This document shows, one piece after another, positions 46,244 to 61,984 of a DNA stretch of 64,000 bases (positions within the stretch are counted from its first letter, which is position 1; each line of letters begins with the position of its first letter). The translations under genes and the position numbers were made by a program. The notes below the pieces were generated by a model. The model searched no databases. It saw only the letters and a list, made by a program, of their open reading frames with translations, and was not told the DNA's origin. Origin of the DNA: Williamsia serinedens (GTDB taxonomy: Bacteria > Actinomycetota > Actinomycetes > Mycobacteriales > Mycobacteriaceae). The DNA is taken from NCBI RefSeq assembly GCF_024171725.1, contig NZ_JAMTCG010000005.1:62001-126000 (forward strand), given 5' to 3'.

Positions 46244-46320
46244 TGTCCGGATTCCGCGTCCAGAGTGCGTGCCGTGGTCATATCGTCCACGGTTGCCGCT
46301 GTGGGTGCGGATCTCGGTCA
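46244..46320. repeat. Dispersed palindromic repeat, family B copy 1
   Basis: Three blocks are shared with 50190-50266 at identical offsets: the 17-mer starting TGTCCG (16 of 17 identical), TATCGTCC-R-CGGT (offset 37) and TCTCGG (offset 68). The core CCGTGG/CCACGG forms a hairpin. Its right edge touches the stop codon of the leftward amidase gene. Confidence 0.8.
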
Positions 46321-47763
46321 GGCGTCCTGGATCCGGGCGAACGCGCGGTCGGCCTCGAGTTCGTAGGCGAGTTCCAGCAGAGTCGCCTCGTCGCCGTGGT
46401 CGGCGGAGAGCTGGATGCCCAGCGGCAGTCCCGCGGACGTCGAGGTCACCGGGAGCGAGATCGCCGGACCGCCGGTCGCGTTGTTCAGCGGGGTGAAGGC
46501 GACCCACCGCACCAGTCGGGGGAAGAGGACGTCGAAACCGAGTGCGGGCGAGAGGTGTCCGAGTTCGGGGGTCGTGTGGGCGACCGTCGGCGACAGCATC
46601 GCGTCGAGGCCCCGGTCGGCGAACGCGGCGCGGTACTTGGCCTCCGAGGCGCGCAGACGCCACAGCGCAGCGGGTGTGCGCCAGAAGTTCCGTTGGAACC
46701 GCCGCGACAACCCGGTCGTGAGCGACTCCAGCTCCGACGCCTCGAAGTCCGGACTCATGATCCGTCGGCCGAACTTGGTGAGGGCGAAGCCGAGCAGCGA
46801 CCAGTAGTGCACGAAGTCGTCCTTGAAGGCGACGAGGTCCTTCTCCGGCAGCGGCAGGCCGATCGGCACGACCTCGTGCCCGAGCGCCTCGAGTCGCTGA
46901 GCGGTGTCGAGGACCGCAGCACGGGTCTCGTCGTCGACAGGCAGTTCGCTGATCGACCGGTCTACCAGCCCGATCCGCATCCGACGCCCCGACGGGCCCT
47001 CGACGTGGCCGATCGGCCGCAGGCGCGGCGCGGGCCGGTACTTCTCCACCTGCGCGGCGAACGCCGCCGTGTCCCGGACGGTGCGGGTGAGCGCACCGTT
47101 GCTGACGAGGTTGACCGGCATCTGCTCGGCGTGGTCGTCCGGCAGCTCCCGACCGCGCGTGAACTTCAGCCCGACGAGACCGCACGCCGCGGCCGGGATG
47201 CGGATGGATCCACCACCGTCGTTCGCATGGGCGATCGGCACCACGCCGGCCGCGACGAGGGCCGCCGATCCGCCGGACGACGCACCCGCCGAGAACCGGG
47301 TGTCCCAGGGGTTCGGGGTGGCCGGATCGTGCTCGAACTCGGTGCTGGCGTTCAACCCGAACTCCGGCATCCGCGACTTCGCCAGGCTGATCACACCCGT
47401 CGAGAGGTACTGGTCGGTGACCGGGGAGTTGCGGCGGGCCGGCCGGGAGTGGACCGCCCGAGAGCCCTGGTCGGACGGCAGACCGGCCACGTCGGTGTTG
47501 TCCTTCACCACGGTCGGCACGCCCGCGAACACGCCCTTGCCGGGGCTGCGCGCGAAAGCCCGCGCGCGGTCGAAGTCGGGGTGGGCGACGGCGTGGAGCA
47601 CACCGACGCTCTCGAGGCGAGCAAGTGCCGCCTCGACCGCCTCGGACGCCGAGATCTCCCCGGACGCGATCCGCGCGGCGACCCCGGTCGCGTCGTCGGC
47701 CCCGAGGGCGTCGTCGGTGAAGGCGTGCACCCGGACGACGGTGTCCGGGGAGGTGTCCGTCAT
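46318..47763 (-). CDS. Amidase-signature family amidohydrolase
   Basis: Amidase of 481 residues with the Ser-cisSer-Lys triad: Lys87 in VPTVVKDN, the cis-Ser in SAGASSGGSAAL (about 162-163) and the nucleophile Ser186 in NDGGGSIRIPAA. It hydrolyses an amide to an acid and ammonia; specificity is unknown. It is divergent from the GntR regulator, and the shared gap contains the palindromic operator 62 bp upstream of this start, so it is a likely member of the same regulon. It ends inside the family B repeat. Confidence 0.9.
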   Translation of the reverse strand: MTDTSPDTVVRVHAFTDDALGADDATGVAARIASGEISASEAVEAALARLESVGVLHAVAHPDFDRARAFARSPGKGVFAGVPTVVKDNTDVAGLPSDQGSRAVHSRPARRNSPVTDQYLSTGVISLAKSRMPEFGLNASTEFEHDPATPNPWDTRFSAGASSGGSAALVAAGVVPIAHANDGGGSIRIPAAACGLVGLKFTRGRELPDDHAEQMPVNLVSNGALTRTVRDTAAFAAQVEKYRPAPRLRPIGHVEGPSGRRMRIGLVDRSISELPVDDETRAAVLDTAQRLEALGHEVVPIGLPLPEKDLVAFKDDFVHYWSLLGFALTKFGRRIMSPDFEASELESLTTGLSRRFQRNFWRTPAALWRLRASEAKYRAAFADRGLDAMLSPTVAHTTPELGHLSPALGFDVLFPRLVRWVAFTPLNNATGGPAISLPVTSTSAGLPLGIQLSADHGDEATLLELAYELEADRAFARIQDA

Positions 47764-47824
47764 CAGGCGACCCTATCGGCCGGACGAGAACACGTGTCCG
47801 GTCGTGGTCGCGCACGGGTGGTTG

Positions 47825-47838
47825 GATTGTTGACAATC
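47825..47838. promoter_or_regulatory. GntR/FCD regulator operator, site 1
   Basis: GATTGT-TG-ACAATC is a perfect inverted repeat in the gap between the amidase and gntR genes. Its 13-nt core ATTGTTGACAATC recurs exactly, on the other strand, at 60937-60950 before the aminotransferase operon. It contains TTGACA (47829-47834), with CACCAT 17 bp downstream, so a bound repressor would cover the -35 of the gntR promoter. Such a TTGT..ACAA core is usual for FCD-type regulators. Confidence 0.8.
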
Positions 47839-47928
47839 TACCGTCGGCACCGCACCATCGGATCACTGACCGAGACGAGTACGGGGAGATCGCCCTGACT
47901 GACGTGTGCGGGCACCCCGGGCGTGCCC

Positions 47929-48675
47929 ATGACTGACGCAGCAGCCTCCGGCATGCGGACCGACACCACCGCCGCACGCCGCCGTGTGTTGGCGCCGTTG
48001 GTGCAGGAGTCGACGCCGGCGATCATCGCCCGCCAGTTGCGTGCCGCCATCGCCGACGGTGAATTCCCGCCGGGCTCGCAGTTGACCGAGAGCGGCTTGG
48101 CGGCCGACCTGGGCGTGAGCCGAGGACCGCTGCGCGAGGCGATGCAACGTCTGACGCAAGAAGGGCTGCTGGTCAGCCACCGCAATCGCGGCCTCTTCGT
48201 CATCTCCATGGACGACGACGACATCAACGACATGTACGTCGCGCGGACCGCGATCGAACGCGCGGCGCTCGCGCAGGTCGTCGCGGGGCACGACGAGGAG
48301 GACCTCGCCGTGCTCCGGGCCGCTATCGATCACATGCAGCAGTTCGCCGACGACCCCAACGGTCGCGAGATCGCCGACGCGGACATGGGTTTCCATGCGC
48401 AGCTCGTCGAATGCGCTCGCAGCCCGCGGTTGTCACGGATGCACGAGACGATCCTCATCGAGACGCGAATGTGCCTGGGCGCCATGCGGGGCACCTACGC
48501 GTCGGCGCAGGCACGCATCGACGAGCACACCGATCTCCTGCGTGCGATCGAGGCGGGGGACGCGGAATCCGCCGACCGGCTGATGATCGCCCACATGCGT
48601 GACGGGTTGGCGCGGATCATGCCCCAGGAGTCGACGGTGACCGCCCGGACCGTGCCGCCCGCGCATCCGCGATGA
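47929..48675 (+). CDS. GntR-family regulator with FCD domain
   Basis: Regulator of 248 residues. The N-terminal winged helix (IIARQLRAAIADGEFPPGSQ, then LGVSRGPLREAMQRLTQEGL) is followed by an all-helical FCD ligand domain whose metal-site residues appear in DMGFHAQLVECA, DEHTDLLRAI and IAHMRDG. FCD proteins sense small organic acids, often pathway intermediates. ATG 47929 and GTG 47923 are both possible. A palindrome 91 bp upstream recurs before the aminotransferase operon at 60.9 kb, so it probably controls that operon, itself and the amidase. The transporter gene follows on the same strand. Confidence 0.9.
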   Translation: MTDAAASGMRTDTTAARRRVLAPLVQESTPAIIARQLRAAIADGEFPPGSQLTESGLAADLGVSRGPLREAMQRLTQEGLLVSHRNRGLFVISMDDDDINDMYVARTAIERAALAQVVAGHDEEDLAVLRAAIDHMQQFADDPNGREIADADMGFHAQLVECARSPRLSRMHETILIETRMCLGAMRGTYASAQARIDEHTDLLRAIEAGDAESADRLMIAHMRDGLARIMPQESTVTARTVPPAHPR

Positions 48676-48793
48676 CCTGCAAAGCCGTCCGAGAACGCCG
48701 CGCCGCCGAGACAGAAGGGCTAGGGTCGGACGGTCGGTCTGACGACCATGGGACACGACGCACGATGCGCGACGACATGTCGGAGGAATCACG

Positions 48794-50176
48794 ATGACCA
48801 CCAATCTGTCGAAGGACGACGGCGTCCCGGCGCTTCCGGACTCGGAGTCCGTCGAGGGACGCAAGTTGCTGCGCAAGGCGATCGGCGCCTCGGCGATGGG
48901 CAACGCGACCGAGTGGTACGACTACGGCGTCTACGCCGCGACGGCCACCTACCTCACCACCGCGTTCTTCCCCGGTGACCTGGGGACGATCGGCACGATG
49001 CTGGGCTTCGCGATCTCGTTCGCACTGCGCCCCCTGGGCGGGATGGTGTGGGGTCCGATCGGCGACCGCATCGGGCGCAAAGCCGTTCTGGCCATGACGA
49101 TCCTGCTGATCTCGATCGCGACCGCACTCATCGGTGTCCTGCCCACCCACGCGGTGGCCGGCATCTGGGCGCCGATCCTGCTGATCGTGTTGCGGGTCAT
49201 CCAGGGCTTCTCCACCGGCGGCGAATACGGCGGCGCCGCAACGTTCATGGCCGAGTACGCGCCGGATGCCAAGCGCGGCAGGTACGGATCGTTCCTCGAG
49301 TTCGGCACACTCGCCGGCTTCGTCATGGGTACCGCATTCGTGCTCGTTCTCGAGCTGAGCCTCACCGACGACCAGATGCAGACATGGGGATGGCGCATCC
49401 CGTTCTACTTCGCCCTGCCGCTCGGCCTCATCGGGCTCTACCTGCGGAGCCAGATGGAGGACACCCCCGTCTTCCGGGAGATCGAGCAGAAGGGCGAGAT
49501 CGAGGGCACGGCATGGTCGCGCTTCGTCGATCTGCTCCGTGACTACCGCCGTCCGATCATCATCATGTTCGGGATGGTGATCGCGCTCAACGTCGCGAAC
49601 TACACGCTGCTGGCGTACCTGCCGACCTACCTCAAGAACACGATCGGCCTCGAGGGCAACGACAGCACGGTCACCATGCTGATCGGGCAGCTGGTGATGA
49701 TGGCGCTGATCCCGTTCGTGGGCAGACTCTCCGACAGGACCGGTCGCAAGCCGATGTGGTGGGGGTCGTTGATCGGGTTGTTCGTGTTCGCCCTGCCCAT
49801 GTTCTGGTTGATGGGCAAGGGATTCGCCTGGGCCATCATCGGATTCGTGGTCCTGGGTGTGCTCTACATCCCTCAGCTGGCCACCATCTCCGCCACGTTC
49901 CCGGCGATGTTCCCGACGCAGGTGCGCTACGCCGGCTTCGCGATCTCCTACAACGTGGCCACAGCGGCGTTCGGTGGTACCGCCCCGCTCGTCAACGATG
50001 CGGTGGTCGAGAACAACTCGGGGTGGGACCTCTTCCCGGCCGGCTACATGATGATCGCGTGCGCCATCGGCATGGTGTCGATGGTCTTCCTCCGGGAGAC
50101 CGCGGGCTGCTCGATCCGCGGTACCGAGATCCCCGGCGAGGCGACGGACGCCGAGAAGGCCCTCGCCTCGGCCTGA
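48794..50176 (+). CDS. MFS metabolite:H+ symporter (ProP-like)
   Basis: Importer of 460 residues with 12 helices in the metabolite:H+ symporter family of ProP, ShiA and KgtP. Typical motifs are SAMGNATEWYDYGVYAATA before helix 1, GDRIGRKAVL in loop 2-3, and IQGFSTGGEYGGAATFMAEY in helix 4-5. ProP-type relatives import osmolytes such as ectoine, proline and betaine, which fits the ectoine-hydrolase-like operon nearby. The C-terminal coiled coil of E. coli ProP is missing, so it is probably not itself an osmosensor. ATG 48794 has GGAGG upstream. Confidence 0.9.
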   Translation: MTTNLSKDDGVPALPDSESVEGRKLLRKAIGASAMGNATEWYDYGVYAATATYLTTAFFPGDLGTIGTMLGFAISFALRPLGGMVWGPIGDRIGRKAVLAMTILLISIATALIGVLPTHAVAGIWAPILLIVLRVIQGFSTGGEYGGAATFMAEYAPDAKRGRYGSFLEFGTLAGFVMGTAFVLVLELSLTDDQMQTWGWRIPFYFALPLGLIGLYLRSQMEDTPVFREIEQKGEIEGTAWSRFVDLLRDYRRPIIIMFGMVIALNVANYTLLAYLPTYLKNTIGLEGNDSTVTMLIGQLVMMALIPFVGRLSDRTGRKPMWWGSLIGLFVFALPMFWLMGKGFAWAIIGFVVLGVLYIPQLATISATFPAMFPTQVRYAGFAISYNVATAAFGGTAPLVNDAVVENNSGWDLFPAGYMMIACAIGMVSMVFLRETAGCSIRGTEIPGEATDAEKALASA

Positions 50177-50189
50177 GAGAGGGGCGATC

Positions 50190-50266
50190 TGTCCGAATTC
50201 CGCGTCGTGGGTGGGCACCGTGGACGTATCGTCCGCGGTGCCCACCCACAGCGCGTTTCTCGGACA
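50190..50266. repeat. Dispersed palindromic repeat, family B copy 2
   Basis: Very stable: 20-nt arms 50207-50226 and 50230-50249 pair with a single T-G wobble around a 3-nt loop, flanked by outer arms CTGTCCGA (50189-50196) and TCGGACAG (50260-50267). It lies between convergent genes, with its right edge touching the stop of the gene at 50268. It is collinear with copy 1 at 46244-46320 and may act as a bidirectional terminator. Confidence 0.88.
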
Positions 50267-50267
50267 G

Positions 50268-50723: not shown

Positions 50724-51323
50724 TCAGTGCGGCCGCTCGAGGTCGACGGTCGAGCTGGGCAGTCCCCACTCCATCCGGCCGAGGCGGCTGACGGCGGCGA
50801 GCTTTGCGTAGTCGGGCATGCCGTCGTCGGCGAGGATCGCGGGGTCGATCGTCAGGGCGACGACCTCACCCATCACCACGACGCTGTTGCCCACCTCGAC
50901 GCTGCGGTGGAGCTTGCACTCGATGGCGACGGGGGAGTCCCGGACGCGCAGGCAGTCGACGACGGTGGCGGGCGCCGACGCGATGTCGGCCTCGACGAAC
51001 TCATCGATGTCGCGGTCGAACCCGGCGGAGCTCGCGTTGGCCTTCTCCATCAGCGCCTGCGTGGCGATGTTGATGACGAACTGCCCGGTCTCGATCGCGT
51101 TGCGCGCGCTGTCCTTCGCGCCGCCGACCGAGGTGAACTGCACGACCGGCGGGGCCGTCGACGACACCGAGAAGAAGCTGTACGGCGACAGGTTGTCGAC
51201 CCCGTCGGCGCTGCGGCTCGACACCCAGGCGATCGGCCGGGGAACGATGCTCGAGGTCAACAGCTGATAGAAGCGGCCAGGGTCGACGTCGGCGGGATCG
51301 TGCACGATGCGGTCGGAGGACAT
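50724..51323 (-). CDS. Flavin reductase-like, FMN-binding split barrel
   Basis: Protein of 199 residues in the flavin reductase domain family: SSIVPRPIAWVSSRSADG, NLSPYSFFSVSSTAPPVVQF and INIATQALMEKANASS are the classic conserved stretches. It binds FMN and either reduces free flavin for a monooxygenase or oxidises a substrate. ATG 51323 is preceded by a GGAG-like sequence. It lies 97 bp downstream of the six-gene catabolic operon and could be its seventh member, but the gap allows an independent promoter. Confidence 0.87.
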   Translation of the reverse strand: MSSDRIVHDPADVDPGRFYQLLTSSIVPRPIAWVSSRSADGVDNLSPYSFFSVSSTAPPVVQFTSVGGAKDSARNAIETGQFVINIATQALMEKANASSAGFDRDIDEFVEADIASAPATVVDCLRVRDSPVAIECKLHRSVEVGNSVVVMGEVVALTIDPAILADDGMPDYAKLAAVSRLGRMEWGLPSSTVDLERPH

Positions 51324-51420: not shown

Positions 51421-52638
51421 TCAGCCGAGGAGGCGCAGGGCGAGGACGGCGTAGGCCCGCGCCGCGGTGACGAGGTCGTCGACGGCGACGGATTCGTCCG
51501 GTTGGTGGGCCTGGCCGGTGATGTCGCCGGGACCGAGGACGATGCAGTCGACGCCGAGGTCACGGCTGACGAACCCCCCGTCGCAGGCTGCGGTCCAGCC
51601 GCCGATGGACGTGTGCGCACCGACGGCGGTCACCGCGTCGACCGCCGCCCGGACGAACGGGTGGTCCGGCGCGGTGCGGAAGCCCGGCATCGACATGGTG
51701 ACCGCGATGTCGACCTCGATGCCGTCGGAGTCGATGCCGTGTCGGCGCACCTCGGCGCGGAGGTTCTCGGCGATCGCATCGGCGTCCTCGTCGGGCATGA
51801 GACGGCGGTCGATGCCGATGGAGCAGTTCGGCGCGACGGCCGAGATCCCCTGGCCGCCCGTGATGGTGCCGACGTTCCACGTGCCGGCACCGAGGAGCGG
51901 GTCGAGGTCGGCCTGCATGGCGTCGTGATCGGCCCGGATGATGTCGATGACCTTCGTCGCGGCGTCGATCGCGTTGCGCCCGTCGGCCGGGCGACCGGAA
52001 TGGGCTGCGCGCCCGCGGATCTCGATCTCGATGTAGGACGCACCGCGGCACGCGATGACGGTCTCCATCGCGGTGGGCTCGGCGACGACACATCCGGCGT
52101 ATCCGCCAGGGTGCAGGGGATAGGCATCGGGGCCGCCGACGAGGTCGCGCACGCCGATGCCGTGCTCCTCCTCGTCGACGGTGCACACCAACTGCACCGG
52201 GCCGGAGAGGTTCTCGCCCCGCAGGGCGTCCATCGCGGCGACGATCGCCGCCAGGCCGCCCTTCATGTCGGTGCTGCCTCGTCCGACGATGCGGCCGTCG
52301 GAGACGCGCGCCGCGAACGGGTCGTCGGTCCAGCCGGGGCCGGGAGGGACGACGTCGGAGTGGCCGAGGAACATCACCCCGGGACCGTCCCCGCCGGGCA
52401 GCGTGGCCACCAGGTTCGGGCGGCCGGGTGCGACCTCCCGCACCTCGACCGTGGCGCCGACCCGCTCGGCGGCGGCCCGCAGCACGGCCACGGCCTCGCC
52501 CTCGGTACCACCGGGGTTGACGCTCGGTGCCTCCACCAGCGCGGTGGTCACCGCGACGATCTGCGCGGCGTCCACCCGTTCGCACACCGCCCGCTCACGG
52601 TCGGTCCGCGCGACGGTCTCGGTCACGGCATCGGTCAC
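51421..52638 (-). CDS. M20 metallopeptidase/deacetylase (ArgE/DapE type)
   Basis: Zinc amidohydrolase of 405 residues. Metal ligands appear in FLGHSDVVPPG (His), GRGSTDMKGG (Asp), CTVDEEEHG (catalytic Glu pair), VVAEPTAME (Glu) and GQAHQPDES (His). The dimerisation lid holds GRAAHSGRP. ArgE/DapE enzymes remove N-acyl groups from amino acids. In this operon it is the best candidate for deacetylating N-acetyl-L-2,4-diaminobutyrate, a step done by the unrelated AstE-like DoeB in proteobacterial ectoine breakdown (inference). The GTG start forms a GTGA overlap with the aminotransferase stop. It is the last gene of the operon. Confidence 0.9.
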   Translation of the reverse strand: MTDAVTETVARTDRERAVCERVDAAQIVAVTTALVEAPSVNPGGTEGEAVAVLRAAAERVGATVEVREVAPGRPNLVATLPGGDGPGVMFLGHSDVVPPGPGWTDDPFAARVSDGRIVGRGSTDMKGGLAAIVAAMDALRGENLSGPVQLVCTVDEEEHGIGVRDLVGGPDAYPLHPGGYAGCVVAEPTAMETVIACRGASYIEIEIRGRAAHSGRPADGRNAIDAATKVIDIIRADHDAMQADLDPLLGAGTWNVGTITGGQGISAVAPNCSIGIDRRLMPDEDADAIAENLRAEVRRHGIDSDGIEVDIAVTMSMPGFRTAPDHPFVRAAVDAVTAVGAHTSIGGWTAACDGGFVSRDLGVDCIVLGPGDITGQAHQPDESVAVDDLVTAARAYAVLALRLLG

Positions 52639-53861
52639 GCGACCATCTTCTCAAGGCTGACCGTGAGTCGCCGGATGCCCTCCTCGATCCGCTCGGGGGT
52701 GCTGGAGGCGAAGCAGAGGCGCAGGGCGTTGCGGAAACGACCGCCCGGCGAGAGCGCCGGACCGGGGATGAACGCGACCCCGTCGGCCAGCGCGCGCTCG
52801 AACAGCTCGCGGGTGTCGATCTCACCGAACTCGCCCGCGAGCGTCAGCCACAAGAAGAACCCGCCCTCGGGGTTCGTGGTGGTCACCCGGTCCCCGAGAT
52901 GACGCGCGATGGAGTCGAGCATCGCGTCCTTGCGCTCGCGGTAGAGCGCGCGGATCTGGCTGAGGTGGTCCTCCAGGCCGCCGCGGGCGATGTACTCGGC
53001 GACGATGTGTTGGTTGGGGACGTTGGTGCAGGTGTCCATCGCCTGCTTGCCGTTGATGAGCAACTGCCGCAACGACGGGTCGGCGTCGACCCAGCCGACG
53101 CGCCACCCGGGGGCGAGGATCTTCGAGAACGTCCGCACCGAGAACAGCAGCGGGTCCTCGGGGCTCAGCGTCCGGAACGTCGGGATGTCGGTGCCGTGGA
53201 AGCGCAGCAGCCCGTACGGGTCGTCGTCGATGATCACCGACCCCCAGCGGTGGGCCAACTCCAGCAACGCCTTCCGGCGCTCCAGCGACAGCGTCACGCC
53301 CGACGGGTTCTGGAACGTCGGGATCGTGTAGATGGCCTTCGGCGGCCGATGGTGGTGCGCGACGAGATCCTCCATGAGGTCCACGCGCATGCCCTCGTCG
53401 TCGACCGGGACCTCCAACAGCTGTGCGCCGTAGGAGAGCGCCGTGGCACTGCCGTTGGTGTACGTGGGCGACTCGACGACGACGAGGTCACCGGGGTCGA
53501 CGAACAGCTTGCACGCCAGGTCGAGTCCCTGCATGCCGCCGGTGGTGATGACCAGACGGTCCTCACTCGACGGGTCCGGGGTCCCGGCGAGGTACTTCAC
53601 CAGCAGCTCGAGCAGACGGGGCTCGCCCTCCGTGGCGCCGTAGGTGAACGACGAGGGGTCGAGGACGGAGCCCGCGATCTCCCGGAACTCCTCCGACGGG
53701 ACCGCCTCGTCCGCGGGCGATCCCATGGCGAACCGCACGATGTCGTGCTTCTGCGCGGCCAGCAGCGACGTCGACGAGTCGATCATCGAGCCGACGAGGT
53801 CCTTGGCCCGGCCGGCCAGCGGCAGGGTCGGGCTGTGGTGCGCCAGTTCGGTGGCGGTCAT
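52635..53861 (-). CDS. Class I/II PLP aminotransferase (2-aminoadipate/LysN type)
   Basis: PLP enzyme of 408 residues. The Schiff-base Lys is in SVRTFSKILAPGWRVGW; TTGGMQGLDLA, TIPTFQNPSGVTLS and VIIDDDPYGLLRFHG are family blocks. It is like the aminotransferase half of MocR regulators but has no DNA-binding domain. It probably transfers the amino group of an alpha-amino acid, and could remove nitrogen from aspartate, diaminobutyrate or a hydroxylated relative. It is the fifth gene of the operon, 28 bp after the M24 gene, and translationally coupled to the M20 gene. Confidence 0.92.
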   Translation of the reverse strand: MTATELAHHSPTLPLAGRAKDLVGSMIDSSTSLLAAQKHDIVRFAMGSPADEAVPSEEFREIAGSVLDPSSFTYGATEGEPRLLELLVKYLAGTPDPSSEDRLVITTGGMQGLDLACKLFVDPGDLVVVESPTYTNGSATALSYGAQLLEVPVDDEGMRVDLMEDLVAHHHRPPKAIYTIPTFQNPSGVTLSLERRKALLELAHRWGSVIIDDDPYGLLRFHGTDIPTFRTLSPEDPLLFSVRTFSKILAPGWRVGWVDADPSLRQLLINGKQAMDTCTNVPNQHIVAEYIARGGLEDHLSQIRALYRERKDAMLDSIARHLGDRVTTTNPEGGFFLWLTLAGEFGEIDTRELFERALADGVAFIPGPALSPGGRFRNALRLCFASSTPERIEEGIRRLTVSLEKMVA

Positions 53862-53889: not shown

Positions 53890-55083
53890 TCACTTGCGGA
53901 TCAGTTCGCGGGGGACGGAGGTGAACGTCTCGACGCCGGACGCGGTGACCCGCACCGACTCCGACACCTCGAACCCGTACCCGTCCATCCACATCCCGCA
54001 GATGATGTGGAAGCACATGTTCTCCTCCAGGACGGCCTCGTCCTCGCTGCGGATGCTGATGGTGCGCTCACCCCAGTCGGGCGGGTAGGCGATCCCGATG
54101 GAATAGCCCAGACGCGAAGGCTTCTCGAGCCCGTACTTGGCCAGCGTCCAGTTCCACGTCGACGCCAGCTCGCGGGTCGCGACGCCGGGTCGGATGGTGT
54201 CGAGGACGTTGTTGAGGCCCTCGATCGCGGCGCCCGCGACGTAGTCGACGTCGGGGTTCGGTGTCCCGATCGCGACCGTCCGCGCCAGCGGGCAGTGGTA
54301 CCGGTTGTGGGCGCCGCTGAGCTCGACGACGACGGCCTCGTCCTTCTCGAAGGTGCCCTGGTTCCAGGTGAGGTGTGGGGTGTCGGCGGCGGCACCGGTC
54401 GGCATCATCGGGACGATGGCCGGGTAGTCACCACCGAACTGTTCGGTGCCGGTGATCTGCGCCTGCGAGATGACCGCCGCCGCATCGCACTGTCGCACAC
54501 CGGCGTCGATCACCTCGATCGCCGCACGCATGGCCTCCGAGCACACCATGCCGGCCTGCCGCATCAGCTGGATCTCGGCGTCGGACTTCACCGACCGCAC
54601 CCAGTTGACGAGCTCGAAGCAGTCGACGAGCTTCCACTCGGGGATCGCGTTGAACAGCGCGCGGTAGGCCTTGGGCGGGAAGAAGTGCGAGTCCATCTCC
54701 AGGCCGACGCTGCCCTGCTTCGACGCGGGCGCGATCTGATGCCGTTGGCGCAGCGACCAGGCCACCCAGTCGAAGGGGTGCACGTGCGGACGGTGGACGT
54801 AGCTCTCGGGGTATCCGACGATCTGGTCCTCCGGCAGCCACGTGGTGCGGTGTGCGCCGTTGGCGTCCATCTCCCGCAGGTAGAAGACCATCTCGCCCTC
54901 GATGGGGACGAAAAGCATCTGCGGCGTGTAGAAGGACCACGCGTTGTAGCCGATCAGGTAGAAGATGTTCGCCGGGTCGGTGACGATGACCGCCGAGAGC
55001 CCCTGGCGTTCCATGAGTTCCCGGACGCGCAGGAGCCGTGCGGCGTACTCCGCGTCGGTGAAGAGCTGGGATCCGAGGTACAC
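53890..55083 (-). CDS. M24-fold hydrolase, ectoine hydrolase (DoeA/EutD)-like
   Basis: Creatinase/prolidase-fold protein of 397 residues, the length of ectoine hydrolase. It shares with that family, from memory, VTDPANIFYLIGYNAWSFYT, REMDANGAHRTTWL, VGYPESYVHRP, GGDYPAIVPMMPTG, PHLTWNQG, GIAYPPDWGERT and the ESVRVTASGVETF end. Normal M24 metal ligands are not kept as a set. Glu254 in VVVELSG lies where EutD has its reactive Glu. DoeA opens the ectoine ring to N-acetyl-diaminobutyrate. Ectoine is therefore the likely substrate, supported by aminotransferase, dehydrogenase and deacetylase neighbours. A related M24 activity such as creatinase remains possible. The alignment was not computed. Confidence 0.78.
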   Translation of the reverse strand: MYLGSQLFTDAEYAARLLRVRELMERQGLSAVIVTDPANIFYLIGYNAWSFYTPQMLFVPIEGEMVFYLREMDANGAHRTTWLPEDQIVGYPESYVHRPHVHPFDWVAWSLRQRHQIAPASKQGSVGLEMDSHFFPPKAYRALFNAIPEWKLVDCFELVNWVRSVKSDAEIQLMRQAGMVCSEAMRAAIEVIDAGVRQCDAAAVISQAQITGTEQFGGDYPAIVPMMPTGAAADTPHLTWNQGTFEKDEAVVVELSGAHNRYHCPLARTVAIGTPNPDVDYVAGAAIEGLNNVLDTIRPGVATRELASTWNWTLAKYGLEKPSRLGYSIGIAYPPDWGERTISIRSEDEAVLEENMCFHIICGMWMDGYGFEVSESVRVTASGVETFTSVPRELIRK

Positions 55084-55092: not shown

Positions 55093-56562
55093 CTAGGTCC
55101 GCGGGATCGCGAGGTACTTGGTCTCGAGGAACTCCTCGATCCCGACCCGGCCACCCTCCCGGCCCAGACCGGACTCCTTGACCCCGCCGAACGGCGCCGC
55201 AGGGTTCGAGACCAGACCCGTGTTGAGGCCGACCATGCCGACCTCGAGCTTCGACGACAGCCGCAGCGCGCGGTCGATGTCCTGGGTGAAGAGGTACCCG
55301 ACGAGACCCCACGGTGTGGCGTTGGCGAGCCGGAGCACCTCGTCCTCGTCGTCGAACGGGATGAGTGCGGCGACGGGGCCGAAGATCTCGGTGGACATCA
55401 GGTCGGACTCGGCGCTGACGTCGGTCAGGACGGTCGGCGGATAGAAGTACCCGGGGCCGTCGGGCGCGGTGCCACCACACATGACGGTCGCACCGCGTGA
55501 GACGGCGTCGTCGACGAGTTCGCGCACCTTGGTCAGCGCCTTCTCCTCGACGAGCGGTCCGACCTGGGTGCCGTCGGCGGTGCCGTCGCCGACGCGGAGC
55601 GCGCTCATCTTCTCGGTCAACTTGCGGCCGAACTCCTCGGCGACGCTGCGGTGCACGAAGATCCGGTTGGCGGCCGTGCACGCCTCGCCCATGTTGCGCA
55701 TCTTGGCGACCATGGCGCCGTCGACGGCGCGGTCGATGTCGGCGTCGGCGCAGACGACGAACGGGGCGTTGCCGCCGAGCTCCATCGACGTCCGCATGAC
55801 GGTGCCGGCGGCCTGCTCCAGCAGCAGCTTCCCGACGGCGGTGGAGCCGGTGAAGCTGAGCTTGCGCGCCAGGCCGCTGGTCATCCACTCGGTCACGACG
55901 GGGCCGGGGTCGTTCGTGGTGACGATGTTGAGGACGCCGTTCGGCAGGCCGGCCTCGGTGAGGATCCCGGCCAGGGCGAGCGACGTCAGCGGCGTGAGCT
56001 CGGCGGGTTTGAACACCATGGTGCAGCCCGCGGCGATGGCGGGACCGATCTTGCGGGTCCCCATGGCCAGCGGGAAGTTCCACGGCGTGATGAGCACACA
56101 CGGGCCGACCGGCTCCTTGGTCACCACGATGCGGTTGGCGCCGTCGCCGGTGGTGGTGTGGTCGCCGCCGATGCGGACGGCCTCCTCGGCGAACCACCGG
56201 AAGAACTCGGCGCCATAGGCGACCTCACCCTTCGCCTCGGCGAACGGCTTGCCCATCTCGGTGGTCATGATCAGCGCGAGCTCGTCGGCGCGGTCCATGA
56301 TCAACCGGTGTGCGCGGTAGAGGATCTCGCTGCGCGATCGTGGTGAGGTCGACGCCCAGGACTCCTGGGTGGCGGCGGCGGTCTCGATGGCGCGACGGGC
56401 GTCCACGGCACCGCCGTCGGCGACGGTGGCGATCGCCTCGCCGGTGGCGGGGTTCACCACGGCGAACGTCGCACCGGACTCGGCCGGAACCCACTTGCCG
56501 TCGATGAACAGCCCGGTGTCCAGCGCCCGGATCGTCTCGGCTGCGGAACGGGTGTCGCTCAC
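55093..56562 (-). CDS. Aldehyde dehydrogenase (succinate-semialdehyde DH-like, DoeC candidate)
   Basis: NAD(P)-dependent aldehyde dehydrogenase of 489 residues. Motifs: ITPWNFPLAMGTRK, FTGSTAVGKLL (cofactor), MELGGNAPFV (general-base Glu), the catalytic Cys in MGEACTAANRIFV and EIFGPVAAL. It most resembles semialdehyde dehydrogenases. In an ectoine pathway it would oxidise aspartate semialdehyde to aspartate, the DoeC role (inference). The GTG start forms a GTGA overlap with the FAD/Fe-S oxidase stop, and it ends 9 bp before the M24 gene. Confidence 0.92.
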   Translation of the reverse strand: MSDTRSAAETIRALDTGLFIDGKWVPAESGATFAVVNPATGEAIATVADGGAVDARRAIETAAATQESWASTSPRSRSEILYRAHRLIMDRADELALIMTTEMGKPFAEAKGEVAYGAEFFRWFAEEAVRIGGDHTTTGDGANRIVVTKEPVGPCVLITPWNFPLAMGTRKIGPAIAAGCTMVFKPAELTPLTSLALAGILTEAGLPNGVLNIVTTNDPGPVVTEWMTSGLARKLSFTGSTAVGKLLLEQAAGTVMRTSMELGGNAPFVVCADADIDRAVDGAMVAKMRNMGEACTAANRIFVHRSVAEEFGRKLTEKMSALRVGDGTADGTQVGPLVEEKALTKVRELVDDAVSRGATVMCGGTAPDGPGYFYPPTVLTDVSAESDLMSTEIFGPVAALIPFDDEDEVLRLANATPWGLVGYLFTQDIDRALRLSSKLEVGMVGLNTGLVSNPAAPFGGVKESGLGREGGRVGIEEFLETKYLAIPRT

Positions 56563-59500
56563 GGTGTCTCCCTCGTCCTGGTCGGGGTGTCTGCGGTGGT
56601 GGGGGTCGGGCGGTCGGGATCGATCAGTTCGGCGAGGTGCACACCACCGACGGCGTCGATGGCGGCGTCCACGCCGGCGAGATGGTCGACGGCCATCGCG
56701 CAGCTGAAGCCGTCGGTCAGGACGGGTTCGTCGGGTCGACGCGCGCGCAGGGCGGGTGCGAGCGCCTGTTCGCCGACTGCCATGCCCACCTCGTAGTGTC
56801 CTCGCTCGAACCCGAAGTTGCCTGCGACGCCGCAGCATCCGTCGGCCGATCGCACGTCGGCGACACCGAGGCGCCGCAGCACCGACGCCTGGGTCGACGG
56901 CCCGAAGACGGCGTACTCGTGGCAATGGGTCTGCACGGTGACGGCCTGGGGCACCGGCGGCGGCGTCCACCCGTCGTCGAGCATGCTGCCGACGTGCGTG
57001 GCGAAACTTCGGACGCGGGCGGCGACCCGGCGCGCGGCGTCGGTGTGGACGAGTTCGGGCAGGTCCTTGCGGAGCGCGGCCGCACAGCTGGGTTCGGGGA
57101 CGACGATGGGTCTGTCGGTTCCGTCGTCGAGGGCGTCGGCGGTGCGGCTGAGCACCTTCCGGGCGCGGTCGAGCTGCCCGGTCGAGATCCACGTCAGACC
57201 GCAGCAGTTGTCCTTCTCGCAACTGATGCTGTCGGCGCCGCCGAGCACGCGCGACGCCGCCTGCGCCACCTGCGGCCGGAACGCGCGGGTGAACGAGTCG
57301 ACGAACAGCACGACGGGTGCGTCGTCGCGACGGACCAGCGAGCGCAGCGCGGCGCGGACCTGCTTGCGTCGGGCGAACCGCGGCATCGACCGCCGTGCGT
57401 CGAGACCCGCGACCCGCGCTGCGGGACCGGCCAGACGGGTGCCGAGGACGGCGTTGATCATCGGGGCGGTCGCCGTCGCCATGCGCAGCCACGCCGGCAT
57501 CCAGCCGAGCGAGTAGTGCGACATCGGACGCTTCCGACCCTTGTAGTGGTGGTGGAAGAACTCGGCCTTGTAGGTGGCCATGTCGACGCCGGTGGGGCAG
57601 TCGGTCGAACACGCCTTGCACGACAGGCACAGTTCGAGCGACTCGCGGACGTCCTCGGAACGCCACCCGGACTCGACGTCGGGTGCCGACCGCAGCATCT
57701 CCTGCAGCACCCGGGCGCGGGCGCGGGTGGAGTCCTTCTCGTCGCGGGTCGCGCGGTAGCTCGGGCACATCACGCCGCCGCTGTGCGAACGGCACCGGCC
57801 CACCCCGATGCACGCCTGCGTGGCGTGGACGAACGGGTCGAGGTCGGTGCCCTCGGGGACGTCGGTGTCGGGGGTGTGCGCGGACCCGGGGATCCCGAGG
57901 TCGAACGCGGTCTGCCACGTGCGGCGCGGGATCCCGGCGAGCGCGAGATCGTCGCCGATGGGTGCCGGGTCGACGATGCTGCCGGGGTTGAGGAGCCCCT
58001 GCGGGTCCCAGATGCCCTTGAACCGTTCGAAGAGTCGGATCATCTCCGGCGAGTACATGATCGGCAGCAGCTCCGAGCGAGCGCGGCCGTCCCCGTGCTC
58101 ACCGGACAGCGACCCGCCGTGGTCGACGACGAGCTGCGCGGCGTCGCGGACGAACGCGAGCATCGTCGCGCGTCCGGACTCGGTGCGCTGGTCGAATGTG
58201 ACGCGGACGTGCATGCAGCCGGCGCCGAAGTGGCCGTACATCACACCGGTCAGGCCGTGGTGGTCGAGCAGTCGACGGAAGCCCTCCAGGTACTCGGGCA
58301 GGCGTTCGGGCGCGACGGCGGAGTCCTCCCAGCCGGGCCAGGACTCGTATCCCGCACCGGCGTCAGGATCGTCGAGGTCCACCAGACGCGAGGACAGGCC
58401 TGCGCCGTCCTCGCGGACGCGCCACAGCATCGATCGCGTCGTCGGGTCGGTGACCGTGCGCGCGTCGACGACGCGGCCGTTCGCGCGGAGTTTGTCGGCG
58501 AGATCGGCGACGGCACCGGCGATGTCGTCCACGCGGCCGCCGACGCTGTGCTCGTCGAGTTCGATGTAGATCCAGGCGTTGCCGTCGGGCAGACCCTCCA
58601 CCGAGGCCCGGCCCCGACGTGCGCGCATGGTGGCGACGATGCGCTCGTCGATGCCCTCGATCGCCGACGGTGCGAAGTCGAGCATGGTGGGGACGTCGCG
58701 CGCGGCGTCGACGACGTCCCGGTAGCCGACGCACAGCAGTGTCGGGTGCTGGGACACGGGCACCAGCGACACCGTCGCCGCGACGACGAGAGCGCAGGTG
58801 CCCTCGCTGCCGACCAACGCACGCGCGACGTGGAAACCGTGCTCCGGCAACAGGTGTGCGAGATGATAGCCCGACACCTGACGCGGAATCCGCTCCAACT
58901 CGACGCGCAGCGGTGCGAGGTTCTCCGTCGCCAGTGCACGGAGCCCGTCCTCGACCTCGGCGGCACGTCGCACGGCGGCGGTGTCGGACGGGTCCGCGGC
59001 GCGCAGACCGGTCGCCGTGGCGACGAGAAGATGGCCTTCGGCGGTCACGACGGTCACGTCGACCACGTGGTCGGTGGTACGTCCGTACCGGACGGAGTGG
59101 TTGCCGCAGGCGTCGTTGCCGATCGCCCCACCGAGGCACGCGCGGGACTGGCTCGACGGGTCGGGGGCGAACGTCAGCGCCCCGTCGCTCGCCTCGCGGA
59201 CGTGCTTCTGCAGTGCGGTGAGGACCACGCCCGCCTCGGCCGACGCGGTGGCGCCGACGGTGTCGACGGCGTGGACGCGCGTCATGTGCCGTGAGAGGTC
59301 GATGACCACGCCGGCGCCGATGGCGTTGCCGCCCATGCCCGTCCCGCCACCACGGGGGATGACGGGCACGCCGTTGCGGTGGCACCAGGCCACCGCGGTG
59401 GCGACCTCGGCCGCGTCGCGCGGGAACACCACGCACACCGGCCGGAGCCGATAGTTGGAGGCGTCGTAGGAGTACTCGGCGCGGCGGCGCGACGAGTCGT

Positions 59501-59582
59501 CGGCGTGCAGCCCCAGCTCACGCAGGGCGGTGCCGGCCGCGGCGGCGTCGACCGCCGTCGGCCGGGATGAGGTGACGGTCAT
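56559..59582 (-). CDS. Fused FAD-linked oxidase/Fe-S oxidoreductase (GlcD-GlcF/YdiJ type)
   Basis: Single-chain oxidoreductase of 1007 residues. The N-terminal half is a VAO/PCMH flavoprotein (PRGGGTGMGGNAIGAGVVID binds FAD; LGGAIGNDACGNHSVRYG). The C-terminal half has two Fe-S motifs (CIGVGRCRSHSGG...CP and CLSCKACSTDCPTG) and two CCG domains (DNCCGLTW, DGCCGVAGN). Relatives oxidise D-lactate, glycolate or D-2-hydroxyglutarate and pass electrons to the quinone pool. Here the substrate is probably a 2-hydroxy acid made in the operon's pathway, perhaps from a hydroxylated ectoine (speculative). It is the second gene, 10 bp after the class III aminotransferase and overlapping the ALDH start. 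Confidence 0.93.
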   Translation of the reverse strand: MTVTSSRPTAVDAAAAGTALRELGLHADDSSRRRAEYSYDASNYRLRPVCVVFPRDAAEVATAVAWCHRNGVPVIPRGGGTGMGGNAIGAGVVIDLSRHMTRVHAVDTVGATASAEAGVVLTALQKHVREASDGALTFAPDPSSQSRACLGGAIGNDACGNHSVRYGRTTDHVVDVTVVTAEGHLLVATATGLRAADPSDTAAVRRAAEVEDGLRALATENLAPLRVELERIPRQVSGYHLAHLLPEHGFHVARALVGSEGTCALVVAATVSLVPVSQHPTLLCVGYRDVVDAARDVPTMLDFAPSAIEGIDERIVATMRARRGRASVEGLPDGNAWIYIELDEHSVGGRVDDIAGAVADLADKLRANGRVVDARTVTDPTTRSMLWRVREDGAGLSSRLVDLDDPDAGAGYESWPGWEDSAVAPERLPEYLEGFRRLLDHHGLTGVMYGHFGAGCMHVRVTFDQRTESGRATMLAFVRDAAQLVVDHGGSLSGEHGDGRARSELLPIMYSPEMIRLFERFKGIWDPQGLLNPGSIVDPAPIGDDLALAGIPRRTWQTAFDLGIPGSAHTPDTDVPEGTDLDPFVHATQACIGVGRCRSHSGGVMCPSYRATRDEKDSTRARARVLQEMLRSAPDVESGWRSEDVRESLELCLSCKACSTDCPTGVDMATYKAEFFHHHYKGRKRPMSHYSLGWMPAWLRMATATAPMINAVLGTRLAGPAARVAGLDARRSMPRFARRKQVRAALRSLVRRDDAPVVLFVDSFTRAFRPQVAQAASRVLGGADSISCEKDNCCGLTWISTGQLDRARKVLSRTADALDDGTDRPIVVPEPSCAAALRKDLPELVHTDAARRVAARVRSFATHVGSMLDDGWTPPPVPQAVTVQTHCHEYAVFGPSTQASVLRRLGVADVRSADGCCGVAGNFGFERGHYEVGMAVGEQALAPALRARRPDEPVLTDGFSCAMAVDHLAGVDAAIDAVGGVHLAELIDPDRPTPTTADTPTRTRETP

Positions 59583-59592
59583 GGGCGAGGCG

Positions 59593-60909
59593 TCAGGCCA
59601 GCGCGTCGTCGACGGCGTCGGAGAAGCGCTTTAGTCCGGCGGTGATCTCGTCCTCGGTCACCACGAGCGCGGGGATGAGGCGGACGACGTTGCCGAGCGG
59701 GCCGCAGGTCAGCGTGAGCAGCTCGTGTCCGATCGCTGCCTGCTGCACCGCGGCGGCCGCAGCGGCGTCGGCGACCGGGACGGCGCCGGATGCGGCGGGG
59801 TCGACGAACTCGATCCCCGCCATCAGGCCACGCCCGCGGACGTCGCCGATGCGCGGATTGCGCGCGGCGATCTCCTGTAGCCCGGCGAGGAGCTGATCCC
59901 CACGGACGCGGGCGTTCTCGACGAGGTTCTCGTCGCGGATGACGGCGAGGGTCTCGACACCCGCGGCGGCCGCGACGGCGTTGCCGCCGTAGGTGCCGCC
60001 CTGCGAGCCCGGCCACGCCTTGCTCATCAGCTCGGTGGACGCCGCGATCGCGGAGATCGGGAAGCCCGAGGCGATGCCCTTGGCGGTGATGAGGATGTCG
60101 GGGGTGACGCCCTCGGCGAACTGGTGGCCCCAGAACCGACCGGTGCGCCCGACGCCGGCCTGCACCTCGTCGACGATGAGGACGATGCCGTGGCGGTCGG
60201 CGCGCTCACGCAGGCCCTGCAGGAAGGCCGGCGGCGTCGGGAGGTACCCGCCGTCGCCGAGGACCGGCTCGATGAGCATGGCCGCGGTGTCGATCGGGGC
60301 GACGCGGGAGGCGAAGAGGTAGTCGAGCTCGCGCAGCGCGAACTCGACGGCCGAGGCCTCGTCCATGCCGTAGCGGTAGGCGTAGGGGAACGGCGCCATG
60401 TGGACGCCGCTCATCAGCGGCGAGAAGCCGGCCGAGAACTTGGTGCCCGCGGTGGTGAGGCTCGCGGCGGCGACGGTCCGGCCGTGGAACCCGCCCTGGA
60501 AGACGACGATGTTCGGGCGACCCGTGGCCATGCGGGCCAGGCGGATCGACGCCTCGACGGCCTCGGAGCCGGAGTTCGCGTAGAAGACGGAGTCGAGCCC
60601 GTCGGGCAGCACCTCGCCGAGGGCTTCGGTGAGTGCGAGCAGCGGCTGATGCATCACCGTCGTGTACTGCGCGTGGATGATCTTGCCGCACTGCTCCTGG
60701 GCGGCGGCGACCACGCGAGGGTGGCAGTGGCCGGTGCTGGTGACGCCGATCCCGGTGGTGAAGTCCAGGTAGTCGCGGCCGTCCGTGCCGTGGATCCACG
60801 AGCCCGTCGCGTGGTCGACGACGACGGGCGTGGCCTGTTTCAGCGCCGGACTCAGGGTGGCGCGGGGAGCGCGCGTCGAAACAGGTGCAGAGGCCAGCGT
60901 GGACGTCAT
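59593..60909 (-). CDS. Class III PLP aminotransferase (DoeD/GABA-transaminase-like)
   Basis: Omega-aminotransferase of 438 residues. Motifs: YLDFTTGIGVTSTGHCHP, YANSGSEAVEASIRLAR, FQGGFHGRTVAAASLT, the PLP Asp in IVDEVQAGVGRTG and the Schiff-base Lys in ITAKGIASGFP. In the predicted pathway it would turn L-2,4-diaminobutyrate into aspartate semialdehyde (DoeD role); GABA or another omega-amino acid is an alternative. ATG 60909 leads the six-gene leftward operon. The palindromic operator is 28 bp upstream and overlaps TTGACA; CACCCT 18 bp further would place transcription near the ATG, so the mRNA may be leaderless. Confidence 0.93.
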   Translation of the reverse strand: MTSTLASAPVSTRAPRATLSPALKQATPVVVDHATGSWIHGTDGRDYLDFTTGIGVTSTGHCHPRVVAAAQEQCGKIIHAQYTTVMHQPLLALTEALGEVLPDGLDSVFYANSGSEAVEASIRLARMATGRPNIVVFQGGFHGRTVAAASLTTAGTKFSAGFSPLMSGVHMAPFPYAYRYGMDEASAVEFALRELDYLFASRVAPIDTAAMLIEPVLGDGGYLPTPPAFLQGLRERADRHGIVLIVDEVQAGVGRTGRFWGHQFAEGVTPDILITAKGIASGFPISAIAASTELMSKAWPGSQGGTYGGNAVAAAAGVETLAVIRDENLVENARVRGDQLLAGLQEIAARNPRIGDVRGRGLMAGIEFVDPAASGAVPVADAAAAAAVQQAAIGHELLTLTCGPLGNVVRLIPALVVTEDEITAGLKRFSDAVDDALA

Positions 60910-60936
60910 GCGCACAGGGTGACGGGCCGATGGTCG

Positions 60937-60950
60937 GATTGTCAACAATT
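60937..60950. promoter_or_regulatory. GntR/FCD regulator operator, site 2
   Basis: GATTGT-CA-ACAATT. On the minus strand its core ATTGTTGACAATC is identical over 13 nt to site 1 at 47825-47838. It lies between the divergent aminotransferase operon and the 2-hydroxyacid dehydrogenase gene, so one site could control both. TTGACA on the minus strand within it is the likely -35 of the operon. Confidence 0.8.
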
Positions 60951-61012
60951 GGACCATCCGGTCGCGGCGGCGCCGGATCACCACCGCCGACCACCCGCTC
61001 TACGGTGGGCGC

Positions 61013-61984
61013 ATGAGTGCCCGACCGGTGCGCCTGACCGTGCTCACGCGCGACGATCTCGACCCGCCCCACAACCTCGACGCCATCGCCGACCTGGCCG
61101 ACATTCGGCTCGCGACGGCGACGTCGTTGGCCGACGACCTGCGCGGCAGCGACGTCCTGCTGCTGTGGGACTACTTCTCCTCGGCGCTGCGCGACGCGTG
61201 GTCGGGCGCCGACGCGCTGCGGTGGGTCCACGTCTGCGCGGCCGGGGTCGACGCGATGCTCTTCGACGAGCTGCGCACGTCCGACGTCACCGTCACCAAC
61301 GCCCGGGGTGTGTTCGACGGCCCGATCGCCGAGTTCGTGCTCGCCACGATCCTCGCCCGGGACAAGCAGCTCCACCTCAGTCGTGCACTGCAGCGTGACC
61401 ACGACTGGCGGTGGCGCGAGACGCGACGGACCGCCGGCTCCACGGCGCTGGTGGTCGGGACCGGCGGGATCGGTCGCGCCACGGCCCGACTGCTGCGCGC
61501 CGCGGGGCTGCAGGTGACCGGGGCCGGCCGCACCGCCCGCGACGGGGATCCCGACTTCGGGACCGTCATCTCGACCGACGACCTCGTCGACCACGTCGGC
61601 GCGTTCGACAACGTGGTCCTCATCGCGCCGCTCACCGAGCAGACCACCGGGCTGGTCGACACCAGGGTCCTCGCGGCCATGCGGCCGTCGGCGCACCTGG
61701 TCAACGTGGGCCGCGGCGCGCTCGTGGTGGAGCGTGATCTCGTCCACGCACTGCGCGACGGCGTGATCGGCGCCGCGTCGCTCGACGTCGTCGAGACCGA
61801 ACCGCTGCCCGACGACAGTCCGCTGTGGGACATGGAGAACGTCGCGATCTCCCCGCACATGAGCGGCGACGTCGTCGGCTGGCGCGACGAGCTCGCCGAC
61901 CAGTTCCTCACCCGACTGCAGGCCTGGGTCGCCGGTGAGGAGCTGACCGGCGCCGTCGACAAGCGGCGCGGATACGTGCACTGA
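61013..61984 (+). CDS. D-isomer-specific 2-hydroxyacid dehydrogenase
   Basis: NAD(P)-dependent dehydrogenase of 323 residues. The nucleotide-binding motif is LVVGTGGIGRATARLL. Catalytic Arg (VNVGRGALV), Glu (VETEPLPDD) and His (ISPHMSGDV) are in place. It interconverts a 2-keto acid and a D-2-hydroxy acid. Divergent from the catabolic operon over a 103-bp gap that holds the GntR-type operator, it is probably co-regulated. With the FAD/Fe-S oxidase it could form a keto/hydroxy-acid step (inference). Confidence 0.92.
   Translation: MSARPVRLTVLTRDDLDPPHNLDAIADLADIRLATATSLADDLRGSDVLLLWDYFSSALRDAWSGADALRWVHVCAAGVDAMLFDELRTSDVTVTNARGVFDGPIAEFVLATILARDKQLHLSRALQRDHDWRWRETRRTAGSTALVVGTGGIGRATARLLRAAGLQVTGAGRTARDGDPDFGTVISTDDLVDHVGAFDNVVLIAPLTEQTTGLVDTRVLAAMRPSAHLVNVGRGALVVERDLVHALRDGVIGAASLDVVETEPLPDDSPLWDMENVAISPHMSGDVVGWRDELADQFLTRLQAWVAGEELTGAVDKRRGYVH

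Follow-up and report, generated by a model that had tools for sequence, protein, structure and literature searches.

The window, a 64,000-nucleotide stretch of Williamsia serinedens DNA (contig NZ_JAMTCG010000005.1, positions 62,001 to 126,000), carries between positions 46318 and 61984 a gene cluster that includes an M24 family protein resembling the ectoine hydrolase DoeA/EutD. Ectoine is a salt-stress protectant. With modest confidence in the explanation as a whole, route included, we propose that the cluster serves the breakdown of ectoine and/or 5-hydroxyectoine as a regulon induced by its substrate. That the shared operator ATTGTYRACAAT marks the cluster as one regulon is, judging from the positions of its copies, very probable. 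Ectoine or 5-hydroxyectoine as the substrate is reasonably probable and less firm than the regulon, and a back end running through D-malate, less firm again, is tentative.

Gene cluster and shared operator

All genes named in the original prediction (a ProP-like importer, a GntR/FCD regulator, M24 and M20 proteins, aminotransferases, a dehydrogenase and a fused FAD/Fe-S oxidase) were found in place (Table 1). Six minus-strand genes follow each other in the order class III aminotransferase, fused FAD/Fe-S oxidase, succinate-semialdehyde dehydrogenase (SSADH)-type dehydrogenase, M24, class I aminotransferase and M20, and the spacing between them (10, -4, 9, 28 and -4 bases, from 59593-60909 down to 51421-52638) is so tight that they can be read as one operon. 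On the plus strand are the genes of the FCD regulator, the major facilitator superfamily (MFS) protein and a D-2-hydroxyacid dehydrogenase. The last of these is divergent from the six-gene operon, and the amidase gene is divergent from that of the FCD regulator, next to which lies the gene of the ProP-like MFS protein.

The 4,636,441-base genome (33 contigs) has the 12-bp operator at two places, which are the two divergent promoters of the cluster; the backward control pattern gave no match. The 10-base core common to both promoters, TTGTYRACAA, matched twice in the window against 0.02 matches expected, and none of 100 shuffled windows reached two.

A search with the window M24 protein yielded 57 loci (L002-L058), some of them on truncated contigs; the closest M24 proteins were those of W. 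deligens (95% identity) and an uncultured Williamsia (96%). The same genes in the same order were found in loci of Williamsia, Gordonia, Arthrobacter, Mobilicoccus and Arsenicicoccus, and because of this recurrence the arrangement is not a matter of chance. In 47 of the 57 loci the corresponding promoters contain core sites, 92 altogether, as compared with three matches of the backward control. The flanking A and T were present at all 92 sites, even though the scan pattern omitted both. Assigned by nearest downstream gene, 43 of the 92 sites went to the class III aminotransferase, 29 to the hydroxyacid dehydrogenase, 18 and 4 to amidases, 16 and 5 to EutA-like proteins, 9 to FCD regulators, 8 to DUF3830 proteins, 4 to M24, 3 to Rid proteins, 2 to alanine dehydrogenase and 1 to the MFS gene, with one more inside an over-long predicted MFS frame; about 18 remaining assignments were to unlabelled or distant genes. 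No site was found in ten loci (L028, L030, L036, L038, L042, L045, L046, L050, L051 and L053), of which L036, L038, L045 and L046 are short contigs.

Operator and regulator tended to occur together. Among the 45 loci that span 19 kb or more, 34 had both an FCD gene and the operator, 6 had neither, 5 had the operator only and none had the FCD gene only (agreement in 40 of 45), and we infer that the FCD protein binds the operator. When 18 M24-bearing genomes were searched whole, WTTGTYRACAAW was found at 57 places and the backward pattern at 6; two Brevibacterium genomes had no site. In one Arthrobacter contig (G008/G608) the M24-aminotransferase-M20 genes are about 80 kb away from the oxidase, dehydrogenase, MFS and FCD genes, and sites are present at both places. 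The regulon claim of the original prediction thus gained support from the genome itself and from the related loci.

Relationship of the M24 protein to DoeA

The sequence blocks on which the DoeA/EutD assignment had been founded (GGDYPAIVPM, GIAYPPDWGERT and Glu254) were confirmed in the window M24 protein, and RYHxPxxRT and YPPDWGERT are also common to it and DoeA. Glu254, which aligns with residue 255 of DoeA chain 6twk (position counted by eye), is presumably the catalytic nucleophile, as we take residue 255 to be in DoeA. It was invariant in a 20-row alignment but was also the majority residue (>80%) in nine distant M24 rows, hence it is not specific to DoeA.

Among solved structures DoeA was the best relative (359 bits versus 87 for the next protein). 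The AlphaFold model of the M24 protein (predicted local distance difference test 88.1) could be superposed on product-bound DoeA 6yo9 with a template modelling (TM) score of 0.94 and a root-mean-square deviation of 1.8, and on substrate-bound DoeA with a TM score of 0.93; prolidases and creatinase reached query-normalised TM scores of at most 0.81 among the 50 matches listed. Motif retention was measured over 62 columns in five motif stretches, all invariant in 13 canonical rows, which consisted of three annotated plasmid doeA genes and ten Actinomycetota rows, four of the latter below the model cut-off (556-608 bits). The M24 clade, here taken as 60 rows, kept 0.83 of these columns, whereas three other M24 groups of similar identity to DoeA kept 0.69, 0.67 and 0.68; the M24 protein of the Priestia eut cluster kept 0.89. 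The higher retention is suggestive of a tie between the M24 clade and DoeA.

Other M24 groups in the collection (L060-L081), from Mesorhizobium and SAR116, are about as distant from DoeA as the window clade and have altered RYHxP (RYA.G, RYN.G), and a Bosea group retains RYHxP with PAIVP lost; the three groups probably act on other substrates. The M24 reading frame of L040, L044 and L045 (497-498 amino acids) exceeds that found elsewhere by about 100 residues. A record titled Kitasatospora arboriphila (L018) has an M24 protein identical to that of Williamsia muralis L017 in a similar gene order, and is possibly mislabelled or contaminated.

Importer genes and other links to ectoine

In five genomes (G604-G608; four Arthrobacter and one Pseudarthrobacter metagenome-assembled genome) the operator lies directly upstream of ehuBCDA. 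The EhuB proteins of these genomes score 263-268 bits with the ectoine-binding model TIGR02995, above its cut-off of 190.9. The closest solved relative of the regulon EhuB is 2q88 (218 bits; next 58), which matches in sequence the EhuB annotated in Sinorhizobium (L083), and the pocket-region motifs NEPPY, Y.SMIPG and GLFMK..RC are retained. EhuA of L034 also exceeds its cut-off (373 versus 345 bits). In A. rhombi (L165, G612) the operator likewise precedes ehuBCDA, and EhuB is below the cut-off (184 bits). EhuB above the cut-off was found in 9 of the 21 genomes searched, two of these proteobacterial; in the control, 5 of 14 genomes gave weaker matches, none above the cut-off. In L162 (Citricoccus) and L164 (Brevibacterium casei), ehuBCDA-like genes adjoin an FCD-type regulator without this operator.

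Other links concern EutA and ectoine synthesis. EutA was the best NCBIfam model for five of the six operator-linked or co-localised Amdase-type proteins scanned, with scores of 69-108, all below its cut-off of 318; the sixth matched arylmalonate decarboxylase best. The window genome has ectC, detected by profile, with adjoining ectA and ectB recognised by eye, therefore the organism should make ectoine. This ectA-ectB-ectC group (L139:8962-12291) is followed by a D-2-hydroxyacid dehydrogenase-like gene whose product is 32% identical to that of the regulon. The best non-actinobacterial plasmid homologue of the regulon's hydroxyacid dehydrogenase (42%) is encoded on a plasmid of Mesorhizobium, at a distance of 3.4 kb from a gene annotated as doeA; the plasmid also holds ectB and ectoine synthase.

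Downstream enzymes and proposed pathway

The enzymes that accompany M24 recur among the 57 loci, truncated contigs included: M20 in 54, the class I aminotransferase in 53, the SSADH-type dehydrogenase in 44, the class III aminotransferase in 42, the hydroxyacid dehydrogenase in 40 and the fused oxidase in 39. In the pathway that we favour the FCD protein would act as a repressor on ATTGTYRACAAT, released on binding the substrate or an intermediate. Ectoine would be imported by the MFS protein and, in Arthrobacter, also by EhuBCDA. The M24 enzyme would open the ring, with Glu254 as nucleophile, to yield N-acetyl-2,4-diaminobutyrate, from which the M20 enzyme would take off acetate to leave diaminobutyrate. 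In an alpha-first route the class I aminotransferase would then form 4-amino-2-oxobutyrate, which the hydroxyacid dehydrogenase would convert to D-4-amino-2-hydroxybutyrate, an analogue of gamma-aminobutyrate (GABA); the GABA-type aminotransferase would produce malate semialdehyde, the SSADH-type dehydrogenase D-malate, and the FAD/Fe-S enzyme oxaloacetate. The route is deduced from enzyme classes and is favoured because it gives all seven recurrent enzymes a use. In this view the M24 and M20 enzymes form a front end coupled to a broader FCD regulon, whose endpoint may be D-malate instead of aspartate, and the gene set probably permits this soil actinobacterium to consume ectoine.

The curated family nearest to the fused oxidase is YdiJ. 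In an alignment with human D-2-hydroxyglutarate dehydrogenase (D2HGDH), read by eye, the catalytic Arg, two His, Glu and His are kept, and the distal-carboxylate positions are changed (Thr390 to Ala, Lys401 to Trp, Asn443 to Arg); as evidence on the substrate, the pattern is mixed. Human and some Pseudomonas D2HGDH enzymes are described as acting on D-malate (PMC9504171, PMC10589216).

In a large actinobacterial genome (L136, G023) the class III aminotransferase, fused oxidase and SSADH genes lie together beside IclR genes, in a region without M24. An AstE-type gene near an aminotransferase-oxidase-dehydrogenase module in a Streptomyces-like genome was considered as a link to DoeB and rejected (92.6 bits versus 402.7, with two IclR genes between).

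Competing explanations

Several findings, set out in this paragraph and the next, weigh against the ectoine assignment or its proposed route. The M24 protein scores 417.9 bits with the DoeA model TIGR02993, 195 short of the cut-off of 613, and 212 with the DoeA_2 model (cut-off 575). In a tree of 91 of the 112 collected rows it falls into an actinobacterial clade of its own (40 rows, support 100/100), outside the canonical DoeA branch of 14 rows (100/100); its sister group is formed by the remaining 40 DoeA-like rows, whose own grouping has support 83/83. The motif stretches had been picked with the motifs already known, and over the other 86 invariant columns the M24 clade keeps 0.58, compared with 0.61-0.67 in the three other groups. 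The window genome gave no EhuB match at an E-value of 1e-20 and no match to DoeB (TIGR02994, AstE type) at 0.001, and W. muralis and Citricoccus have EhuB above the cut-off without the operator. As to the back end, YdiJ of E. coli and Pantoea is described as inactive on D-malate (PMC9504171). The ectoine-type assignment of the original prediction consequently stands in part: fold, motif retention and the co-regulated Arthrobacter Ehu genes speak for it, whereas the profile score and tree position, which had been suggested as a check, do not. Canonical DoeA above the cut-off was found in 6 of 396 sampled genomes of the phylum, none of them in the window's class; canonical or near-canonical DoeA (L086-L095, 556-651 bits) is present in Actinomycetota outside that class.

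The regulon is also commoner than its M24 gene. M24 was patchy, being detected in 4 of the 246 class genomes sampled (E 1e-60) and in 22 of 121 genomes of the family (E 1e-100), whereas the operator was present in 69 of the 121, over which the backward control gave 7 matches. Twenty family genomes had both, 2 had M24 only, 49 the site only and 50 neither; the operator thus occurs in 49 of the 99 genomes without M24. In 15 of 20 site regions taken from 19 of these 49 genomes, at least two regulon genes adjoin the operator, drawn from amidase, DUF3830, EutA-like, FCD, hydroxyacid dehydrogenase, class III aminotransferase, dehydrogenase and fused oxidase genes. One of the 15 (L216) has the hydroxyacid dehydrogenase, oxidase, class I aminotransferase and M20 genes but not M24, and another M24-less regulon (L206) has EhuB above the cut-off (216 bits), with EhuA just under (335 versus 345). 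The dehydrogenase was the sole regulon gene at the operator in L218, and there was none in L213, L214, L217 and L223; copies adjoining no regulon gene were also seen in L184 (Citricoccus) and L186 (two sites). None of the 23 M24-less operator genomes tested had a TIGR02993 match at E 1e-30. The operator and regulator are thus not peculiar to the M24 chemistry, and the regulator and back end can occur apart from the M24 entry step and have a wider distribution.

Such a distribution would be expected if the cluster belonged to a wider actinobacterial catabolic regulon for omega-amino acids of the GABA type, in which M24, aminotransferase and M20 form one of several front ends, with a substrate other than ectoine (a different cyclic amidine or an N-acyl amino acid). 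The position of M24 outside the DoeA clade fits this explanation, and so do the operators of Rhodococcus jostii RHA1 (L224), which adjoin an FCD gene and a permease 47% identical to the GABA-permease-like APC transporter encoded downstream of the cluster in the window (43788-45257; 637 bits, cut-off 678). We nevertheless consider it rather doubtful, since the M24 protein has the fold and motifs of DoeA, EhuB above its cut-off occurs in the same regulon, and EutA, albeit below its cut-off, is the best model for most of the Amdase-type proteins. It is also possible, though in our judgement unlikely, that the ordinary route operates, with the class III aminotransferase serving as DoeD, the dehydrogenase as DoeC, aspartate as the product, and the remaining enzymes serving 5-hydroxyectoine or side reactions. 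The known route is described as leading to aspartate by four enzymes, DoeA, DoeB, DoeD and DoeC (PMC5924519), and an acetylornithine-type aminotransferase and an SSADH-type dehydrogenase are the enzyme classes it uses. The dehydrogenase shares 45% identity with the canonical ectoine-cluster enzyme (383 bits; other SSADHs up to 515), and the operator is found at EutA-like proteins in Gordonia and Arthrobacter loci. In contrast, the class III aminotransferase has just 28.5% identity with its canonical counterpart (149 bits), scores 293 bits with its closest solved relative, GABA aminotransferase 1sf2, and 175 with EctB of its own genome; it is not a DoeD orthologue. The ordinary route would moreover leave the class I aminotransferase, hydroxyacid dehydrogenase and fused oxidase, which it does not need and which recur, unexplained, so that the earlier claim of enzymes for each later step to aspartate was not borne out. 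Finally, M24 might be a prolidase or creatinase of the usual kind, in an operon for the salvage of peptides or amino acids. The superfamily is the same (Pfam M24 and Creatinase_N), but DoeA is the best structural relative and fold match, and archaeal PepQ, the best of the prolidase models, reaches 84.8 bits where DoeA reaches 418; the idea was rejected as highly improbable.

A broader version of the ectoine regulon that we favour is more speculative, and we regard it as improbable: the FCD-controlled ATTGTYRACAAT regulon would be a general system of ectoine/5-hydroxyectoine use in Mycobacteriales and Micrococcales. Its basic form would be free of DoeA and would comprise an amidase-DUF3830 pair, two EutA-like proteins, the D-hydroxyacid dehydrogenase, the GABA-type aminotransferase and SSADH; M24-M20 would be a second entry, and a D-hydroxyacid would lead to D-malate and oxaloacetate, not aspartate. 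Modules of DUF3830, a PRK06169-type amidase and EutA-like Amdase proteins with the same operator were seen in L034 (13620-16544), L219 (4142-9386), L187 and L185, and the module also occurs on contigs without the M24 operon. A literature search for DUF3830 turned up no paper, and one weak plasmid match was obtained.

Features of the cluster

The features of the cluster are listed in Table 1. The flavin reductase-like gene begins 97 bases past the M20 gene of the operon.

Table 1. Genes and operators of the Williamsia serinedens cluster (window coordinates)
Feature	Position	Strand	Remarks
Amidase, amidase-signature family NF005899	46318..47763	-	644 bits, cut-off 418; promoter shares operator 47826-47837
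Operator ATTGTTGACAAT, between amidase and FCD regulator	47826..47837	.	one of two places in the genome
GntR/FCD transcription regulator, proposed operator binder	47923..48675	+	Pfam GntR 66 bits, FCD 84 bits
ProP-like MFS importer	48794..50176	+	best NCBIfam model ProP, 380 bits, below cut-off 544
Flavin reductase-like protein	50724..51323	-	Pfam PF01613; present in Williamsia loci only (5 of 57)
M20 ArgE/DapE-type deacylase, proposed N-acetyl-diaminobutyrate deacetylase	51421..52638	-	54 of 57 loci
Class I aminotransferase, 2-aminoadipate/kynurenine type	52635..53861	-	helix-turn-helix domain not found; 53 of 57 loci
M24 DoeA-like ring hydrolase (predicted)	53890..55083	-	TIGR02993 418 bits, below cut-off 613; PDB 6twk/6yo9
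SSADH-type aldehyde dehydrogenase	55093..56562	-	TIGR01780 571 bits, below cut-off 646
Fused FAD/Fe-S D-2-hydroxyacid dehydrogenase	56559..59582	-	YdiJ model 403 bits, below cut-off 1350; Pfam FAD_binding_4, FAD-oxidase_C, Fer4_8, CCG
Class III aminotransferase, GABA-aminotransferase-like	59593..60909	-	start ATG 60909
Operator ATTGTCAACAAT, between aminotransferase operon and D-2-hydroxyacid dehydrogenase	60938..60949	.	one of two places in the genome
D-isomer-specific 2-hydroxyacid dehydrogenase	61013..61984	+	Pfam PF02826 155 bits; NF041369 204 bits, below cut-off 400

Comparison with known systems

Two aspects of the cluster have precedents. Boas Lichty et al. (2026), using EutD and EutB as queries, reported putative ectoine clusters in Bacillota and Actinomycetota, those of Bacillota with a PucR regulator; the text calls the Gram-positive clusters provisional and states that ectoine consumption is experimentally proven in a few Proteobacteria only (PMC13188858). 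Arthrobacter, Gordonia, Williamsia and Brevibacterium were not found in its main text, and overlap with its Actinomycetota panel is possible. An M20-type model, DoeB2, already exists in NCBIfam, so that the type of deacetylase is no novelty either. The literature search turned up no paper on DoeB2, and its model (NF038260) was not among the best 25 of the 51 families matching the window M20 protein. The search likewise returned, among the matches listed, no actinobacterial ectoine regulon under FCD control. What appears to be new here is the operator ATTGTYRACAAT, which is predicted to tie the two divergent promoters and those of relatives into one regulon. With an operator, a candidate regulator and a list of genes, the actinobacterial case becomes open to direct test; it could assign a role to DUF3830 and to EutA-like proteins beyond the eut operon, and could show that a major osmolyte has a second biochemical end route.

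The M24 protein shares fold, catalytic Glu and motifs with DoeA/EutD and differs from it by its model score and its separate clade. With the proteobacterial eut/doe clusters, as outlined in PMC5924519 and PMC5320631 (EhuABCD importer, EnuR or AsnC-type regulator), the Williamsia cluster shares the hydrolase, a deacylase, a class III aminotransferase and an SSADH-type dehydrogenase, and the Arthrobacter relatives share the Ehu importer as well. The deacylase is of the AstE type there and of the M20 ArgE type here. The regulators are MocR (EnuR) or AsnC (DoeX) proteins there and, as had been predicted, an FCD-type GntR protein here, together with the operator; Pfam found no helix-turn-helix domain in the class I aminotransferase. 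Homologues of eutB and eutC were not seen in the regions compared. Three enzymes are additional here: a second aminotransferase, of class I, the D-hydroxyacid dehydrogenase and the fused FAD/Fe-S enzyme. The putative Bacillota eut clusters (PMC13188858; Priestia plasmid) have in common with it a DoeA-like M24 protein, an M20 hydrolase, an aldehyde dehydrogenase and an MFS protein 40% identical to the ProP-like one, but they have a PucR regulator of their own, eutB, a cyclodeaminase and homoserine dehydrogenase, and their M20 protein is of another subfamily. GABA catabolism (GabT/GabD/GabP) resembles the cluster in that the aminotransferase and dehydrogenase are closest, among solved structures, to GABA aminotransferase and SSADH, whereas the Williamsia operon adds hydrolases, a second aminotransferase and the fused oxidase.

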